Assembly (NCBI GenBank): GCA_017561025.1
Contig: JAFZDU010000112.1
Location: 1-46,887 of the forward strand
Source: Bacteroidales bacterium
Lineage (GTDB): Bacteria; Bacteroidota; Bacteroidia; Bacteroidales; F082
DNA: 46,887 bases
Reading direction: 5' to 3'
The notes below the pieces were generated by a model. That model was not told where the DNA came from and searched no databases. It saw only the letters and a list, made by a program, of their open reading frames with translations. The stretch's first letter is position 1. Every line of letters begins with the position of its first letter. The translations under genes and the position numbers were made by a program. Positions 39,527 to 46,887 of the stretch are shown here, one piece after another.

Positions 39527-39617
39527 AAAATCCTCTCCTATTTTGCATAAATGATTTCGTTTTTGAATGATTATCTTTCTCTTTTATACCGCAAAAAAGA
39601 GAAACAGAAAAAGCTCG

Positions 39618-39742
39618 CCGCTTCGGAGAAATCTGCTAAAATTATGATTCTTTCGCTAAACAAAAACCTCGCTACGCTCAGATAACTTTTTGTCCTTAAC
39701 GCTCCAGACTCATAATTCCTTAACGCGATTTCTCCGAAGCGG
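39618..39742. mobile_element. 125-bp palindromic, MITE-like element
   Basis: CCGCTTCGGAGAAATC at 39618-39633 is the exact reverse complement of 39727-39742 (16 bp). Nested inside, AATTATGA (39640-39647) pairs with TCATAATT (39710-39717). No open reading frame, and no target-site duplication that I could make out. A non-autonomous element or a large REP/BIME-type repeat fits best. It sits in the intergenic stretch between the fucosidase and the defence genes (39399-39847); apart from it and the 11-nt repeats nothing else is seen there. Confidence 0.6.
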
Positions 39743-39808
39743 GATTACTACCAATAACAAAGATTCTATAAAAACAAAAGTCTGTTGCTCTTTAATTGAA
39801 CAATGGAC

Positions 39809-39841
39809 TTGGCACGGAGGAAGTACGACTTTGGTATGAGT
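39809..39841. repeat. 11-nt tandem repeat, right cluster
   Basis: Units TTGGCACGGAG, GAAGTACGACT, TTGGTATGAGT, continuing into ATGGCACTA at the stop of the DUF4276 gene. Same 11-nt period and similar sequence as the left cluster. Confidence 0.55.
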
Positions 39842-39847
39842 ATGGCA

Positions 39848-40501
39848 CTACTTGCACTTTTGAATCAAACTACTCACCCATGTTGCAAATCTGGGACAAC
39901 GTTCCAACATGGTGTTTATACCAATTTCAAGTGCTATAAGATTTCCCTCAAGTGGTTTATTATAGTTTTCCTTTATGCTTAGAATACGTTTAGAAGGTGC
40001 AAGTTGTGGACGTGTATTTATGTCTTCAGGATTATGAAACTCTTTTACTATAGCATCGGTTAATTTAGATTGTTCTTCTGTAAAATACTCTTCAAAACCA
40101 TTGTTATTTGAAAACAACAGCGCCTCAAACTCATGTAATTGTATATATGAAAAGAATCTTCTATCATCAATATTTTTATCTATACATTGTTCCAATTTTT
40201 CAACTTTTTCTTTATTGGAACCAGCCTGGATACATTCTTCATACTTAGGAATATTGGTTGGTATTCTAAAATAATCAATAAACGTAGTGACAATAATATC
40301 TTCCCCTTTTGTCTTCAATAATGGTTTTATCGTATTTTTCAAATGTTCATAATTCACCAGTCCACCTCGTCCTGTTCTGCTCGTATGAATAAGAACCGGC
40401 GTAATACCATAAATATCGTATAAATTTAAGTATGGACATAGTATCTCATTCACAAAGTTTTGTTCTGTCTGACCTTCTACAACTATATACAACCGCTTCA
40501 T
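39848..40501 (-). CDS. DUF4276 TOPRIM-like protein, partner of the AAA ATPase
   Basis: 217 residues from MKRLYIVVEGQTEQNF; the ATG overlaps the ATPase stop (ATGA), which decides the start. Residues 5-14 (YIVVEGQTEQ) with Glu9 and residues 70-78 (IVTTFIDYF) with Asp76 follow the TOPRIM pattern, and YIQLHEFEALLF at 119-130 is the DUF4276 hallmark. TOPRIM proteins of this kind cut nucleic acid in OLD-family and related systems. Together with the ATPase it forms a two-gene 'split OLD' pair, a type often found among phage-defence genes. Function inferred. Confidence 0.82.
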   Translation of the reverse strand: MKRLYIVVEGQTEQNFVNEILCPYLNLYDIYGITPVLIHTSRTGRGGLVNYEHLKNTIKPLLKTKGEDIIVTTFIDYFRIPTNIPKYEECIQAGSNKEKVEKLEQCIDKNIDDRRFFSYIQLHEFEALLFSNNNGFEEYFTEEQSKLTDAIVKEFHNPEDINTRPQLAPSKRILSIKENYNKPLEGNLIALEIGINTMLERCPRFATWVSSLIQKCK

Positions 40502-41592
40502 AATTGTCCTCCTATTAAATTCTTCTCCCACATATCACTTAATGAATATTCGTATTCATTCAACCATATATTCAATTCTTCATTTGACAATCTTTTAAAT
40601 ACAGACTGACCATCTTCTCTATCCACAACCACAATATTCTCTGGTTCAAAGCAATTAACCAAATTTGTTGATTGGGTTGACAATATAATCTGACTCTTGA
40701 ACGATGCTTTCTTAATCATTTCTGCGAATTTATTAATTGCAGCAGGATGCAAACCAAGTTCAGGTTCATCAATAATAATTACCTTTGGGGTATTTGTCTG
40801 TAATAACAATGTCGCTAACGCAATAAATCGTATAGTTCCATCAGAAAAACTATATCCGTTCAGATACATGTCAGTATCTTTTTCTTCCCATTCAAGTGAT
40901 ATTTTATTTGGATTTATTGGGTTGGGTCTTAACTTAAAACATTTAAAATATGGAGCTATAGACCTTACGACACCCTCTATCAATTTGAATCCTTTTTCAT
41001 CTGTCTGTTGTAAACGGTATAAGTAAGCTGCAAGATTTGAACCATTATCCCTCAATGAATCATTGTCGTAAATTTCACACTCGCCCCTCATCGGAGATTT
41101 GGTGCTTGTATCATGGAAATGGTATATAGTAAAACTCTTGAAATGATTTCTTATATACCCTGCTCTCCATTTTGTATTATCCAACAAACAAGATTCTTCT
41201 ACCGTAGAATCCCAGATAGTCTGGTTCCATGATGTATATTTTTTTTCATTGTTTCTACTTTTATTGAAATAATCTCCAGTGAGTTCAATATAACCTTTAT
41301 TAGACTGCGCAGGTCTAAGCGTAAAAAAGAAGGCATTTGTATTGTCAAAATCTAGAAGTCCATTTATACAATCGGATTCTCTTCTAGTTCTGTAAAGCAA
41401 ATTATCAATTCCGCCTTTTTCGAGTGTATAACGCCCAAAGCGCTTCTCTATAATAGATTTTGCCAATTCAAAAAAAGATATAAGATTACTCTTACCTACG
41501 CCATTAGACCCTATCAATACATTAATAGACTGCAATGGCAACTCTAAATTTCTAATAGACTTATAGTTTGATATAATTACTTTCTCTATCAT
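40498..41592 (-). CDS. AAA family ATPase (OLD/RecF-like)
   Basis: 364 residues. Walker A GSNGVGKSN at 28-36; ABC-like signature YSFSDGTIRFIALATLL at 247-263; Walker B VIIIDEPELGLHP at 271-283; and ILSTQSTNLVNCF at 303-315 at the position of the switch region. The insertion between Walker A and the signature is short, without a long SMC coiled coil. It resembles AAA_21/AAA_15 ATPases that partner with TOPRIM or nuclease subunits in defence. It overlaps its DUF4276 partner by 4 bases. A candidate -7 box at 41704 suggests independent transcription. Confidence 0.88.
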   Translation of the reverse strand: MIEKVIISNYKSIRNLELPLQSINVLIGSNGVGKSNLISFFELAKSIIEKRFGRYTLEKGGIDNLLYRTRRESDCINGLLDFDNTNAFFFTLRPAQSNKGYIELTGDYFNKSRNNEKKYTSWNQTIWDSTVEESCLLDNTKWRAGYIRNHFKSFTIYHFHDTSTKSPMRGECEIYDNDSLRDNGSNLAAYLYRLQQTDEKGFKLIEGVVRSIAPYFKCFKLRPNPINPNKISLEWEEKDTDMYLNGYSFSDGTIRFIALATLLLQTNTPKVIIIDEPELGLHPAAINKFAEMIKKASFKSQIILSTQSTNLVNCFEPENIVVVDREDGQSVFKRLSNEELNIWLNEYEYSLSDMWEKNLIGGQL

Positions 41593-41703
41593 AAATACCT
41601 CTTATTATCAACCAGATACATTTTTATCGCACTAACAACTTATGCGCTATAAAAGTACAAAAAAATATATTGTTAATTGCTGTTATAATTTAATTTTCAT
41701 AGT

Positions 41704-41712
41704 GCAAAGTTA
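41704..41712 (-). promoter_or_regulatory. -7 box before the ATPase/DUF4276 pair
   Basis: The minus strand reads TAACTTTGC, matching TAnnTTTGC; its TAA is the stop codon of the small upstream gene. A TTG lies 17 bases further upstream. The leader to the ATPase start would be about 105 nt, AT-rich, with a small CGCA...TGCG hairpin. Confidence 0.5.
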
Positions 41713-41970
41713 CTCAATCAATCTGTTCTCAACACGAAAACGTTCTTTGCAATATTCTTTTATATTGTCCGCTGCGTTATCGTAGAGGAATTTCAATTTT
41801 TTTCTTTGTGTTTCTGTTAAATTATCATCATTATCAACATTACTCTCATGATCTTTTTTACAGGATTCTATATAAACATCCAATTCTTCTTTTCTAATAT
41901 TCTGACCTTTCGAGTATTTATCGTATAAAACCAAGAGCAATGTTTCTGTTAATATTTTCATATTTTGCAT
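41710..41970 (-). CDS. Small hypothetical protein in the defence island
   Basis: 86 residues, or 83 from the second Met (MKILTETLLL). Charged and mostly helical: a hydrophobic N-terminal helix (ILTETLLLVLYDKY), then KEELDVYIESCKKDHES and a C-terminal helix (ETQRKKLKFLYDNAADNIKEYCKERF). No family recognised. It lies 40 bases after the TIR gene. It could be a regulatory or antitoxin-like partner for one of its neighbours, but nothing in its sequence shows that. Confidence 0.5.
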   Translation of the reverse strand: MQNMKILTETLLLVLYDKYSKGQNIRKEELDVYIESCKKDHESNVDNDDNLTETQRKKLKFLYDNAADNIKEYCKERFRVENRLIE

Positions 41971-42010
41971 TATTATTGTGATTTGGTTAATACGGTTTTA
42001 AATTCTTTTA

Positions 42011-42811
42011 TTAACCTATAACAATCTTTCCTATAGATTTGTTTCTTTCATTAATAAAATCTATAAAACTATCTTTTGACTTATTGAAATTTATCCAGTC
42101 TTGTTTTATTTGGTAGAAAGAACAAACTTCACTATATAATTCATCTAATTTGCTTTTATCTGTAACAAGTGCTCCTTGCTTCACAACATTTAAAAATCCC
42201 ATTTGTGAAAATGATATTCCTGGTAATACAAATGGCAATACTCTTTTCCCTAAAGCCCAAGCCGCTCCCATTTCATTTTTACAGACATCACTTTGGTTGT
42301 AATTTTCAGAAATAAACAAGAGTACATAATCACATTCTCTCATATTTTTGACTATTTCTTCTCTAAAATCATCACCTGTACGAATTGACGTTGTATCTAA
42401 AGTGCAGAATATGTCATCATACTTAAAACCACAGCCTAACATTAATATTTCTTTGACAAATGCATTAACTATATCTTTATCAGAAGATGAATGACTGATA
42501 AAGAACTTTTTCTTATTATTTACATTAATATACTTCATTTTAAGTATACCAACAATAGCATTAACAGCTCCAAAAGAAAATGGATTAACACAATTAGGGG
42601 TTCTTAAATTCTTAAGTTCTTTATTAAGACGTATATAACATTCCGGTTCTACATCCTTTATCTCTATAGTTAATTTATTCAATACGTTAACCAAAGCATC
42701 CTCGCCAGGACAATACGAATGACAATTGAGGTTTCCCCTATTTCTTTGATTAATAGCTTTGACAACATTTTCACATACTAAAGCTGCATCTTCTATTATT
42801 TTTTTATTCAT
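42011..42811 (-). CDS. TIR-domain protein
   Basis: 266 residues. Residues 1-100 form an unidentified helical domain with several Cys. Residues ~102-235 are a TIR domain: KKFFISHSSSDKDIVNAFVKE (box 1), CTLDTTSIRTGDDFREEIVKNMRECDYVLLFIS and NQSDVCKNEMGAAWALGKRVLPFVLPG, with Glu180 at the place of the catalytic glutamate of NAD-cleaving TIRs. Bacterial TIR effectors often deplete NAD+ to stop phage growth. It starts 6 bases after the HEPN-motif gene, so it is almost certainly co-expressed with it and with the RM gene. No SIR2, SLOG or nucleotide cyclase partner is in the window, so it is not Thoeris or CBASS as known. Confidence 0.87.
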   Translation of the reverse strand: MNKKIIEDAALVCENVVKAINQRNRGNLNCHSYCPGEDALVNVLNKLTIEIKDVEPECYIRLNKELKNLRTPNCVNPFSFGAVNAIVGILKMKYINVNNKKKFFISHSSSDKDIVNAFVKEILMLGCGFKYDDIFCTLDTTSIRTGDDFREEIVKNMRECDYVLLFISENYNQSDVCKNEMGAAWALGKRVLPFVLPGISFSQMGFLNVVKQGALVTDKSKLDELYSEVCSFYQIKQDWINFNKSKDSFIDFINERNKSIGKIVIG

Positions 42812-42817
42812 AATCCT

Positions 42818-44002
42818 CTATTTTAATTGAAATTCTTTACTTTGCCTTCCGTTCCAAATAAACAAACATTCACACAACTTAACCATAAACTCATTTAATT
42901 GTTCCATATCTTCTTCAGGACATTCTCTACCTGTAAAATTATAGTTTGACTTCGCATGCACGATGCTATTTCTAGTAGCGTACAGAATTTCTGCTATTTC
43001 TTTTTTTACCGCATCTATGTCAGAAGTACCTATAGAAGTTATGTTTTTAATTTCAATATGACATTTCTTTGAAATTGACTTCTGAATGTCTTCTGGCAAA
43101 AATTGGAAAAGTAAAGTGATATCAACACATTCATTCAATACAGTGTTAGCCAATTCTTTGTCTTTTAAAGATATTTCATACTGCTTTGTGAGTTTAAATA
43201 TAGACTCAAGATAATCTGAATCTCTGTCTACAATTTGTAAGGCATCTAATCTTTTATTTAGTTGTTCATATGAAGATTTCTTAGATACAATAGGAGAAAA
43301 ATATTCAATTATCTTGTATAAATGAAGATATTTTATATCTGTTTTTCCTATAGAAAGTCCTTCAATGTAGTAATCCATAGCTTTACAATATGGTATAAGT
43401 TCTGATGAACCAACAATTACAGACTCATCATTCAACTCATCTGTAATATCATCCCATGTCATGAATTCTCCAATAGATATTGGTACATTATATTTGCTTG
43501 CTATATGATACAAACAAGTTTTTATAAACTTAATATCATCTTCCTCACAAGTTCTTTCTTTTTTATAGGTAAGTTCTACAGCCATATAAACCGAACACGG
43601 GTAAACTCCAAAATCCTCATTATAGATTCCATCCCTAGAAGCAACTATTCCTATTAAAAAAGGATTGTCCACTATTCTCATAGAATACTCATCTGTCTCA
43701 AACTTTACATTTGGAACCAAATAATCATAATAATATTCATTCACGGATATGATTGTTTGTCTAATCTTACCAGAAATGACAGTATGATTCTCTTTAATTT
43801 GAATATTATCTAAATCATCAGTGTATCTCAAAAAATCCTCAACTAAATACCAAGTATCATTGCTCCATTCATCAGGGTAATTTATATATATACTTTCCTC
43901 ACCGATTTTAACTTCTTCACTTAATGGATCTATATTAAAATTTTTATACAGATAATCTAGGCGTGCATTTATTTTCCTTATGTTTCTAGCTGACACTTTC
44001 AT
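42818..44002 (-). CDS. Uncharacterised protein with C-terminal HEPN-type Rx4H motif
   Basis: 394 residues. The N-terminal ~200 residues are of mixed strand and helix, with no recognised family. From ~205 on it is helical, and AEILYATRNSIVHAKSNY at 337-354 holds R344-N-S-I-V-H349, the Rx4-6H signature of HEPN domains, preceded by the YRxIEYF-like LYKIIEYFSP at 228-237 seen in ApeA-type HEPN proteins. HEPN proteins are often RNases in defence and toxin systems, although some are inactive. It overlaps the RM gene by ATGA and precedes the TIR gene by 6 bases, so it may bridge the two. Confidence 0.6.
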   Translation of the reverse strand: MKVSARNIRKINARLDYLYKNFNIDPLSEEVKIGEESIYINYPDEWSNDTWYLVEDFLRYTDDLDNIQIKENHTVISGKIRQTIISVNEYYYDYLVPNVKFETDEYSMRIVDNPFLIGIVASRDGIYNEDFGVYPCSVYMAVELTYKKERTCEEDDIKFIKTCLYHIASKYNVPISIGEFMTWDDITDELNDESVIVGSSELIPYCKAMDYYIEGLSIGKTDIKYLHLYKIIEYFSPIVSKKSSYEQLNKRLDALQIVDRDSDYLESIFKLTKQYEISLKDKELANTVLNECVDITLLFQFLPEDIQKSISKKCHIEIKNITSIGTSDIDAVKKEIAEILYATRNSIVHAKSNYNFTGRECPEEDMEQLNEFMVKLCECLFIWNGRQSKEFQLK

Positions 44003-46887
44003 ACACCATCTCCTTCCTCATATTCTCCCCTACTCATCTTTATATCCATATCTATAACCAACACCTCATCGTAAGTTAGACCATAAAGCTTATATACCAT
44101 TAAATCTATCTGGTTTTCTAATTCACTTGTGTCTGCTTGAGGATTGGTTCTCTTGAGCATAAGTATATTATCAACAATCCTAACAATTGCGTCCTCAATC
44201 TTTTGTGGAATATCTTTTGGCACTGGAAATGGTTTTACATAATCCGTTTTGAAAGTATAATATCCTCCACGAAGAACATAACCTGTATTTTGAATAAAGA
44301 ACCAAAATAATCGGGAATTAAATAATGCCATCCAAAATTTATATCCTTCTACAATATTGCTCTTTTTAATATACCCATAAATCTTTGTAGTAGAATAAAA
44401 TTTCCCCTTATCATCATAAGCAAAATTACCTCCCAAAGATATTTCGGGAGCAACAAGTTTTTCATGGTCAAACAGAACAAGATTCTTTGGGTATATGTAC
44501 CTAAACCAATATTCATCATTCATTAACCGTCCTTTTTCTCTACCTCGAAGAATATCTTCGCAGTCTTTCAAATACGAATACCCCAAAGGAAATGTATCTG
44601 ACAATTCTTTTTCGGTATATAATATAGCCTTACCATCAATTAGTTTATATGGAAATATAACGTATCTATCGGTTTTAATATCATCATATCGATGCACATC
44701 TTCGCCTTTTAATAAGGGTTTTACAAGCCCTTTTTCTATTTCAATATTGCGTTCCAATTGCTTCGAATAGCCAATAATATTCTTATCATTTTCTACACAA
44801 TTATATAGGAAATATACATCATCTTTACTTGTTGCCAAGCCTTGAAATATCTTATCAAAAATATCTGATATACGTCTTGGATGCGATTCTAATTTTTGTA
44901 AAATATTTGAAGTAGCACCCACTGTTAAAACCCAAGGATTCTTATCAAGTTTATCCATTCCAATAACAGACGCATCACTATATTTTATTGATTTTAGATA
45001 TATATCAAGTTCGTTATTTGTTTCCAAATTTCTATCTAATTGATAATAATTCAAGCAATCGCTTTCTGGTTTAAACCATTGCAAAGCAGTATATGTTGAT
45101 GCATTAAAAACTTGATATGCACCAAAACTTATTATTTTATTAGCTGCTTTTTTATTAGAAATTATATCCCTAAGTCCTTTACCAAAAGCTGCATTAGTCC
45201 ATTTATCTGGCATTATATAATTTACAATACCAGTTGCTTTTATAATTTGAAGGCCTCTTTCTGCAAATGTTACATATAGGTCAAAAGAGCCAGTGGCTGA
45301 TTGATACTTTTTAACTAACTCATCTGCAAACTCAGGTTCATTGTCACGAATACCTTGAATTCTTAAATATGGTGGATTTCCAATCACGATATCAAAACCT
45401 GTAAAATCGCCTTTTTCATCAAGCAATTGTGGGAATTCAAATCTCCATTCAAAGGCATCTTCATAGACTTTGTTGTTTAAAACATCTTCTCTTTCAGACT
45501 CTAACTTCTCAAGTTTAGCCTTCAGTTTCTTCAATTCGCTTTTTTGTGCTTTGGTTAGTTCTTCACCAAAAAGATTAGGCTGTTCTAAATCGTAAATATC
45601 CTTCTTAACACTAACTATCTTATTAATTTCCTTCTTGCTTAATTCTGTTTTGAATGTTTTCTTTATCTCTTCAATTATCTTTCTGAACAAATCTTTCTTT
45701 GTATGATTTGAAGTGTTTGTGTAATCATTTACAAGTTGCTTGTATTTTTCCAAAGATAACTTCTCATCATCGTTCTTATCCTTATTGTATTCTATAAACA
45801 CATTATCCAAAGGTGTGTCTAATGCATATCTGTTCAATAATGAATTTCCGCAAGTGATTTTATAATCCAAGTTTGGCAATGGATGTGGTTCATCTGCATC
45901 TACTACCAATGCTAACCAGAAACGCAGACGTGCTATGTCAACAGCTCCTTGTTCAATGTCAACGCCAAAGATATTATTCTGTATTATGTTTCGTTTTGTC
46001 TTTGTAGAATCAAAACTTTTGTTTGGTTCGGCATGTGATTGCAGATGATGCAATGCATAATACAAAACATAAAGAATTCCCATTGGAAAAGCACCAGAAC
46101 CAATGGCTGGGTCACAAACCTTAACATCCTTTAACAATTCAATAAAACGTGAAGCAGTTTCTTTGTTTTGCAACACAGGTTCAACAACACTTTCGTTTAT
46201 AAGTCTTTCTATTGCCAAAGAATATTTCTCGTCTGGCTCGTGTGTCTTCAGATATTGTATGACACTTTGCCTGCACATATACTGTACAATTTCCTTTGGA
46301 GTATAAAAAGCACCTTTATCTTTGTTGTCTTCCAATAGGTTTTCAAAAATATGTCCGAGCATTTCTGGGTCAACTCCAACTTCTGCATCATCAGGGTCGT
46401 TTTCGTCAATTGTGAAGTTATACTCATTAAAGAACTTCATCAAATCTTCGAAATAGGAATATGGGAAATCTATATCCAAAGCATCAATTTTGTCCTTATC
46501 GAACAAGCCTCCGTTAAGATATGGAATCTTTATGTTGTTGCCAAGTCTAGAATCTGCAATATCACCTACCCTTTCTTTGTTTAAAGTATCGAAGAACAAA
46601 GGTTCTAATACATCACTCAAAATTCTGTCGTTGCCTTTATATCTCTCAATAAGATTTGCCAGATAGTTTTTATCTCCGCCCTCCCAATTTTCGTTAGACG
46701 CAGGAACACCCATCCAGCCTTTTTTCTGAAGGAATTGCAAAAACACCAAACGACCTAATAACTTCTTGACATAATCACGATGTTGCTTTTTATCTTCGAG
46801 CAGTTTGAGGAATTTTGCATATTGTTCCTTATAACCTTTGAAAAATTCTTTATTAAGACGCTCAACGGAGAATGTATCAGTAACATC
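43999..46887 (-). CDS. Type IIG-like restriction-modification protein, N-terminus beyond window
   Basis: 962 residues are visible; the frame is open to the window end, so the gene starts outside. The first visible part (VERLNKEFFKGYKEQYAKFL, RLVFLQFLQKKGWMGV) is the helical linker seen before the methylase of Eco57I/BREX PglX-type enzymes. Counting from the Leu at 46749: motif X region KGAFYTPKEIVQYM (146-159), SAM motif I VCDPAIGSGAF (211-221), FGVDIEQGAVDIARLR (261-276) and NPPY (458-461), so it is an N6-adenine methyltransferase. The last ~350 residues resemble a target-recognition domain of the TaqI/Eco57I type. A PD-(D/E)xK nuclease would be expected upstream of the window edge. Coupled to the HEPN-motif gene by ATGA. 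Confidence 0.88.
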   Translation of the reverse strand, partial: DVTDTFSVERLNKEFFKGYKEQYAKFLKLLEDKKQHRDYVKKLLGRLVFLQFLQKKGWMGVPASNENWEGGDKNYLANLIERYKGNDRILSDVLEPLFFDTLNKERVGDIADSRLGNNIKIPYLNGGLFDKDKIDALDIDFPYSYFEDLMKFFNEYNFTIDENDPDDAEVGVDPEMLGHIFENLLEDNKDKGAFYTPKEIVQYMCRQSVIQYLKTHEPDEKYSLAIERLINESVVEPVLQNKETASRFIELLKDVKVCDPAIGSGAFPMGILYVLYYALHHLQSHAEPNKSFDSTKTKRNIIQNNIFGVDIEQGAVDIARLRFWLALVVDADEPHPLPNLDYKITCGNSLLNRYALDTPLDNVFIEYNKDKNDDEKLSLEKYKQLVNDYTNTSNHTKKDLFRKIIEEIKKTFKTELSKKEINKIVSVKKDIYDLEQPNLFGEELTKAQKSELKKLKAKLEKLESEREDVLNNKVYEDAFEWRFEFPQLLDEKGDFTGFDIVIGNPPYLRIQGIRDNEPEFADELVKKYQSATGSFDLYVTFAERGLQIIKATGIVNYIMPDKWTNAAFGKGLRDIISNKKAANKIISFGAYQVFNASTYTALQWFKPESDCLNYYQLDRNLETNNELDIYLKSIKYSDASVIGMDKLDKNPWVLTVGATSNILQKLESHPRRISDIFDKIFQGLATSKDDVYFLYNCVENDKNIIGYSKQLERNIEIEKGLVKPLLKGEDVHRYDDIKTDRYVIFPYKLIDGKAILYTEKELSDTFPLGYSYLKDCEDILRGREKGRLMNDEYWFRYIYPKNLVLFDHEKLVAPEISLGGNFAYDDKGKFYSTTKIYGYIKKSNIVEGYKFWMALFNSRLFWFFIQNTGYVLRGGYYTFKTDYVKPFPVPKDIPQKIEDAIVRIVDNILMLKRTNPQADTSELENQIDLMVYKLYGLTYDEVLVIDMDIKMSRGEYEEGDGV

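Follow-up and report, generated by a model that had tools for sequence, protein, structure and literature searches.

A putative HEPN/TIR effector cassette behind a helicase-methylase restriction core in a Bacteroidales bacterium

We have analyzed a contig of 46,887 nucleotides from a Bacteroidales bacterium (GenBank assembly GCA_017561025.1, contig JAFZDU010000112.1), the whole of which is called here the window, and specifically the three minus-strand genes at its end, coding for an adenine methylase, a HEPN-motif protein and a TIR protein. They probably belong to a four-gene operon made of an HKD-SNF2 helicase (found on another contig of the same genome), the Eco57I-type methylase, the HEPN-motif protein and the SpbK-like TIR protein. 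We give a probability of about 0.6 to the reading of this operon as an anti-phage restriction-modification (RM) core followed by a mobile cassette of two effectors, HEPN and TIR, that act as a second line. Sequence comparison suggests that the HEPN-TIR pair is a cassette that has moved between cores of two subfamilies.

The operon and its restriction core

The genes and the terminal overlap are as follows.

C47:658-3924, minus strand: HKD-SNF2 helicase (phospholipase-D), on contig C47, with a 12-base gap to the methylase start
43999-46887, minus strand: gene 1, Eco57I/TaqI_C-type adenine methylase (Pfam Eco57I and TaqI_C), reading frame open at the contig end; 962 codons from the 3' part of a gene inferred to have 1130, the first 168 of which lie on C47
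42818-44002, minus strand: gene 2, HEPN-motif protein of 394 amino acids with a DzbB-like C-terminal region, recognised by its motif
42011-42811, minus strand: gene 3, TIR protein of 266 amino acids (Pfam TIR_2), TIR domain from about residue 97
46747-46887, no strand: terminal overlap of 141 bases, identical to C47:1-141

A preliminary description of the window had reported three minus-strand genes joined by a 4-base overlap and a 6-base gap, and the coordinates of the open reading frames confirm it: the methylase stop and the HEPN start overlap at 43999-44002, and HEPN and TIR are separated by 42812-42817. The signatures that it listed are also present, namely NPPY (45378-45367), R344-x4-H349 (as RNSIVH) and the catalytic glutamate of the TIR (E180 in NEMGAAW). 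The window is an entire contig (C118) of an incomplete assembly (126 contigs, 84% complete), and gene 1 is therefore truncated at its 5' end. By searching the same genome with the proteins of a relative we found C47, a contig of 7.9 kb whose first 141 bases are the last 141 of the window. Read across this overlap the methylase is a single open frame of 1130 amino acids, with DPAIGSG at 427 and NPPY at 672; it starts at base 645 of C47 on the minus strand, and C47 (overlap included) encodes its first 215 residues. The helicase located next to it has the Pfam matches PLDc_2, SNF2-rel_dom and Helicase_C, the motifs H-x-K, GSSN and DEAH and a Walker-type SDVVGLGKT, and is 92% identical to the helicase of the genome G444. 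Four of eight helicases escaped a simple Walker-A pattern, and a looser one matched all five that were re-examined, this one included.

The same arrangement is found in the relatives. Methylase matches at E<=1e-50 were present in 45 of 172 genomes of the family, own included, and in the six loci inspected (from five genomes) an HKD-SNF2 helicase was always upstream, with one intervening gene in four of them (L103, L104, L105 and L106). This, together with the position of the helicase indicated by the C47 overlap, makes the four-gene operon probable. The overlap, the Pfam domains and the relatives assign helicase and methylase to one kind of RM core, which is also present in records of Parabacteroides and Prevotella that are listed as plasmids. 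A second relative of the methylase is encoded in the same genome, on contig C29 (L125 1-2490), as a 5'-truncated gene of 829 amino acids, about 53% identical over part of its length.

The label of type IIG RM enzyme, used in the preliminary description, does not stand. The methylase and specificity regions do match PADLOC IIG models, but the HKD nuclease-type domain is in the separate helicase gene, and no type IIG nuclease was found, since residues 1-215 of the methylase gave zero Pfam matches at E<=10. At a possible E-x-K site our methylase reads E-V-A and its relatives EVA, EVK, EVR or EIR. Judging by these domains, the methylase is one predicted subunit of a helicase/methylase pair, although an N-terminal nuclease too distant for Pfam is conceivable. 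It had also been considered that the upstream flank might hold a complete known system such as BREX. The flank recovered holds the helicase and three divergent genes resembling, from their translations, galactokinase, nucleotidyltransferase and aldose epimerase genes; no BREX gene was recognised among the translations inspected on C47, where no BREX model was run. In the same way, no DUF499 ATPase or DUF3780 gene was recognised on C47 or beside the core, again with no model of these families run.

The putative effector genes and their apparent exchange between cores

Three features of the two proteins behind the methylase are needed here.

42956-42973, minus strand: R344-N-S-I-V-H349, putative RNase motif (sequence motif)
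42272-42274, minus strand: E180 within NEMGAAW, aligned with the glutamate counted here as SpbK E192
42527-42811, minus strand: residues 1-95 of the TIR protein, its N-terminal domain, with Cys 13, 30, 34 and 74 invariant in four aligned homologues

The assignment of gene 2 to HEPN is putative, as no Pfam family reached the cut-off. It rests on the motif, which has the R-(N)-x3-H form of the HEPN superfamily, on the PADLOC DzbB match of the C-terminal region (7.4e-8) and on Pfam HEPN matches below the cut-off in a few of 30 homologues (E<=0.1): HEPN_Apea in 3/30, the best at 3.4e-4, RiboL-PSP in 2/30 and MAE_28990 in 1/30. Pfam support for HEPN is therefore weak; MauJ matched 28 of the 30, a match of unclear meaning. 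A scan of a one-genome-per-species collection with a six-sequence HEPN alignment as query found 39 loci. The alignment of 30 (A5) contains 29 of them and the window, leaving aside L056, L059, L063, L068 and L080-L085 (broken, partial or very distant); another (A4) did not include the broken L013 and L014, nor L016, at 16% identity. Along A5, R344, N345, V348 and H349 are invariant down to 24% identity, an invariance partly selected by the scan pattern TRN..VH. Among the homologues found by phmmer or profile only (eight genomes) the motif was intact in six; a weak match in G849 reads RCKIVH, and the G488 homologue is split over two contigs, the second piece having TRNRIVH. Single-protein HEPN searches found nothing in the collections phages, plasmids, viral_contigs and genome_contigs, PDB searches found no HEPN relative, and alignment-based viral scans found nothing for either HEPN or TIR.

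The TIR domain of gene 3 matches SpbK best (PADLOC 1.3e-27; PDB 9phb 1.2e-17), and all the matches start at about residue 97. NEMG..W is kept with respect to SpbK, covering the residues counted here as SpbK N191, E192, G194 and W197, and the SpbK mutants N191R, G194R and W197A are reported as defective in NADase activity (PMC12847820). By homology, then, the domain is a predicted NADase of the SpbK type. Residues 1-95 had no meaningful Pfam match. According to the same source SpbK consists of residues 1-94, a linker and a TIR extending to 266 (PMC12847820). TIR-only searches covered 295, 172, 140 and 8 genomes, some overlapping, with relatives at E<=1e-30 in eight genomes. In five of these the TIR is within an RM operon: our genome and G028 with the HKD-SNF2/methylase core, G273 and G488 with a type I-like methylase and a specificity gene, and G1072 with a core of HKD-SNF2 type and two genes between. 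A tblastn search of plasmids gave matches in the TIR domain only, none covering 80% of the protein.

The most informative comparison is that of the four closest HEPNs, which form a clade with support 100/98: the window, a Phocaeicola metagenome-assembled genome (MAG; L047), a Paludibacteraceae MAG (L048) and a Bacteroidales MAG (L049). All four are directly behind an HKD-SNF2/methylase core (that of the window via the contig overlap), overlapping the methylase by 4 bases in the window, L048 and L049 and by 7 in L047, and in three the TIR gene comes next. The association of the RM gene with both HEPN and TIR, which the preliminary description had proposed from one locus, is thus conserved in L047 and L049, where HEPN and TIR are 6-8 bases apart, and L048 has HEPN only. 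The adjacency does not look like chance, since it recurs in these two genomes with low ratios of nonsynonymous to synonymous change (dN/dS), 0.065-0.115 for HEPN and 0.074-0.123 for TIR in the close group, values that are rough with dS above 1.

The similarity of the pair does not follow that of the cores. With the proteins behind the other cores the window shares 73-75% identity in HEPN and 70-73% in TIR, practically the range that these show among themselves (HEPN 73-78%, TIR 73%). The methylases of L047, L048 and L049 are 52-59% identical to each other and 24-26% to ours. At the DNA level identity is about 75% over the TIR-HEPN block in L047 and L049 and 73% over HEPN in L048, and the match stops 24-117 bases inside the methylase gene. 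Close HEPN and TIR next to such distant methylases point to an exchange of the pair between cores.

The slot behind this kind of core is variable, with PRTase-CE, LmuA, a DpnII-MboI nuclease or SEFIR/TIR and, by reading, P-loop proteins. Two candidates in it were set aside. The gene after the L048 HEPN was examined as a possible substitute for the TIR, but its RES domain match is weak (0.0078, below the cut-off) and nothing is claimed for it. The cargo slot of a P. distasonis plasmid was rejected as a second HEPN-TIR case because its 304-amino acid gene has no Pfam match and no R-x-H by a simple pattern, and its SEFIR/TIR gene is unrelated to the window TIR at tblastn E<=1e-3.

We have examined with PADLOC the neighbours of 26 of the 39 HEPN loci, often on one side, taking E<=1e-9 as positive. 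With the window included, a positive defense gene adjoins HEPN in 12 of 27 loci: the RM core in four (L048 being counted by the identity of its core to the others), and one each of PDC-S47-like, PDC-M59, PDC-M12, Septu, an IIG-like methylase by a broken HEPN, AbiL (255 bases away), PDC-S15 and DzbA. The last is in a Sulfurovum MAG, where a distant HEPN homologue starts 9 bases after the DzbA gene (2.8e-34). Around five distant control genes there was no positive neighbour (0/5), too few for statistics. One of the loci without a positive neighbour, L052, has an nSTAND3 gene. It is possible that this HEPN family is an accessory shared by several defense systems. The intervals with Septu, AbiL, PDC-M12 and PDC-M59 genes are L012 8416-11733, L015 7791-11205, L054 8039-11188 and L053 8414-11131, respectively.

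This distribution is what feeds the strongest rival explanation, in which HEPN and TIR are self-sufficient abortive-infection genes lodged in a cargo slot behind the methylase, with no cross-talk with the core. The N-terminal domain of the TIR would sense a phage protein as SpbK senses the portal, and HEPN would act as it does in its other contexts. It is the strongest one because the slot is so variable and both gene families live elsewhere: HEPN by Septu, AbiL, PDC-M12, PDC-M59 or DzbA genes or with no recognised partner, and related TIRs where no RM gene is recognised; SpbK, moreover, is alike in length and layout (PMC12847820). Opposed to it are the 4-base overlap with methylases of two subfamilies, the four of four close HEPNs placed on this core type and the order HEPN-TIR kept in three. 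On balance we regard it as somewhat unlikely. In a second rival explanation HEPN and TIR make up a separate two-gene system, sensor and killer or toxin and restrainer, merely co-transcribed with the RM genes. The finding of the pair behind cores of two subfamilies would fit, but L048 lacks the TIR next to its HEPN, and no HEPN accompanies the TIR in the part of G273 retrieved, so neither gene seems to need the other, and we consider this very improbable.

Several observations weigh against the preferred reading of a core with a second-line cassette. The overlap that brings in the helicase is a branch in the assembly graph, which leaves the join of C118 and C47 likely and not proven. L048 retains HEPN without TIR. 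Most relatives of the HEPN lie away from RM genes: 15 of the 27 HEPN loci have no PADLOC-positive neighbour and seven more are by other defense genes. Around the related TIRs of G513, G504 and G963 we recognised no RM gene within the 14-17 kb retrieved. In G488, G963 and G1072 the similarity is limited to about the TIR domain and the N-terminal domain is unrelated, so for G488 and G1072, both counted above within RM operons, the relation covers about the TIR domain only. Finally, the catalytic activities of the operon proteins and the HEPN fold are predictions from sequence.

The methylase break point and the downstream region

45367-45378, minus strand: catalytic motif NPPY; 4 bases past it the G444 allele (L102) ceases to match at the DNA level
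44120-45362, minus strand: target-recognition half of the methylase; from residue 541 on, its 60-residue blocks are 16-32% identical to L102
40498-41592: AAA_21 ATPase, PADLOC HEC-01A, 4e-132
39848-40531: DUF4276 gene, PADLOC HEC-01B, 7e-79

The window methylase is a mosaic, like that of a genus relative up to about NPPY and divergent from there. Against the G444 protein, identity is 91-98% up to residue 480 of the part in the window, 49% in the next block and 16-32% in the later ones. The DNA is 88% identical over 45363-46887, with differences accumulating from about 45 bases ahead of the point where the NPPY codons end, and 44120-45362 had no blastn match among the seven loci compared. A DNA match to the G444 flanks outside the methylase was sought and none was found. 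A Prevotella nigrescens record (L141) contains a related core, and there an inverted repeat of 47 bases (96%) at the NPPY codons encodes ...EGFDIVIGNPPY, one copy being in the expressed methylase and the other in a silent inverted 3' half. From the G444/window break and these repeats we infer that the NPPY codons may be a recombination point in the methylase family. The same record contains, at L141 12272-20402, a pair of methylase 3' halves that are silent and inverted, with an AAA_14/DUF4143 gene separating them, and a gene annotated as Mpi-family invertase. In a motif scan of 19 sequences an invertase-like start was seen only in the P. nigrescens record and none beside the window genes; the other 18 gave no extra methylase half with a strict pattern that also missed the second half in P. 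nigrescens. It is also conceivable, though unlikely in our view, that exchange at the NPPY codons moves the recognition half together with the effector genes that follow it, as a single block.

A second defense pair of known type, HEC-01, lies some 400 bases downstream from the TIR gene and is formed by the AAA_21 and DUF4276 genes. An 86-amino acid open reading frame between this pair and the TIR gene (41710-41970) has zero Pfam or PADLOC matches. Farther on, an element of about 146 nucleotides (39600-39746) folds as one long hairpin (z -5.4) and is repeated in several genomes of the genus. The query region 39600-42000 was matched in 10 of 99 genomes, own included, nearly all the matches being within this element, for which no Rfam family was above the threshold.

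Known systems and proposed function

The preliminary description held that the locus matches no system that it could name. The combination was indeed not found described in the literature, as judged mostly by titles and abstracts with few subscription papers covered, but its parts and its principle have precedents. HEPN genes were proposed in 2013 as a suicidal back-up to RM (PMC3710099), and back-up effectors were reported in 2026 for BREX-related systems (PMC12839542); besides, the HEPN protein is related to DzbB and the TIR domain to SpbK. RM systems with a HEPN back-up nuclease, PrrC with PrrI and a wider predicted set, likewise carry HEPN within the RM operon, its proposed role being to act upon restriction failure (PMC3710099). 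PrrC, from a type Ic RM locus, is an ABC-ATPase-HEPN protein, whereas the window has a DzbB-like HEPN with no ATPase match, an HKD-SNF2/methylase core and in addition a TIR. The Type-2 BREX-related systems share the N-terminal HKD nuclease on an SNF2 helicase and the adenine methylase, but their description also includes the DUF499 and DUF3780 genes (PMC12839542) that were not recognised here. An account from 2008 had predicted RM operons that include SNF2 helicases and had reported HKD domains on a helicase of another type (PMC2292703).

The six proteins encoded at 39848-46887 were compared with PADLOC, and it is over this stretch that the absence of Thoeris, CBASS and BREX genes from the window, stated in the preliminary description, was examined. 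For Dazbog, the DzbB likeness of the HEPN is not accompanied by a DzbA next to it among the matches listed (the best 25 families for two of the proteins), its partner being the RM core instead. For Thoeris, SpbK outscores the ThsB models, and ThsA does not appear among the matches listed. SpbK itself has the same length, the TIR domain and NEMG..W, but the N-terminal domains have no sequence similarity and SpbK is not presented as a member of an RM operon in the part of its description available (PMC12847820). As far as seen, then, the principle of a restriction backed by suicide effectors is known, and the new details are the combination, the apparent exchange of the cassette and the NPPY break point.

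The reading that we favor builds on what the sequence contains: gene order, contig overlap, motifs, purifying selection, recurrence and a similarity pattern pointing to exchange between cores. The HKD-SNF2 helicase, as translocase with a PLD-type nuclease domain, and the Eco57I-type methylase would form a two-subunit RM core, in which the methylase would mark self DNA and the helicase-nuclease would attack unmarked DNA. The HEPN-motif protein would cleave RNA and the SpbK-like TIR would cleave NAD+, so that the cassette would stop or kill the cell when infection is sensed or the core is overcome. Each of these catalytic activities, the formation of a complex, activation through the core and firing upon restriction failure are postulated; the second-line role of HEPN and TIR is probable by analogy with PrrC-PrrI and the 2013 HEPN-RM proposal.

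If it holds, this operon would offer a tangible example, open to experiment, of restriction coupled to two distinct effectors that stop the cell, whose genes seem to move as a unit between distant restriction cores. The DzbB-like HEPN ties together RM, Septu, AbiL and Dazbog loci, and one experiment on this family could inform several systems. A catalytic motif of the methylase is suggested to double as a recombination point. Should the block exchange at NPPY be true, the DNA target and the suicide weapons would change in one recombination step, in some relatives by programmed inversion.

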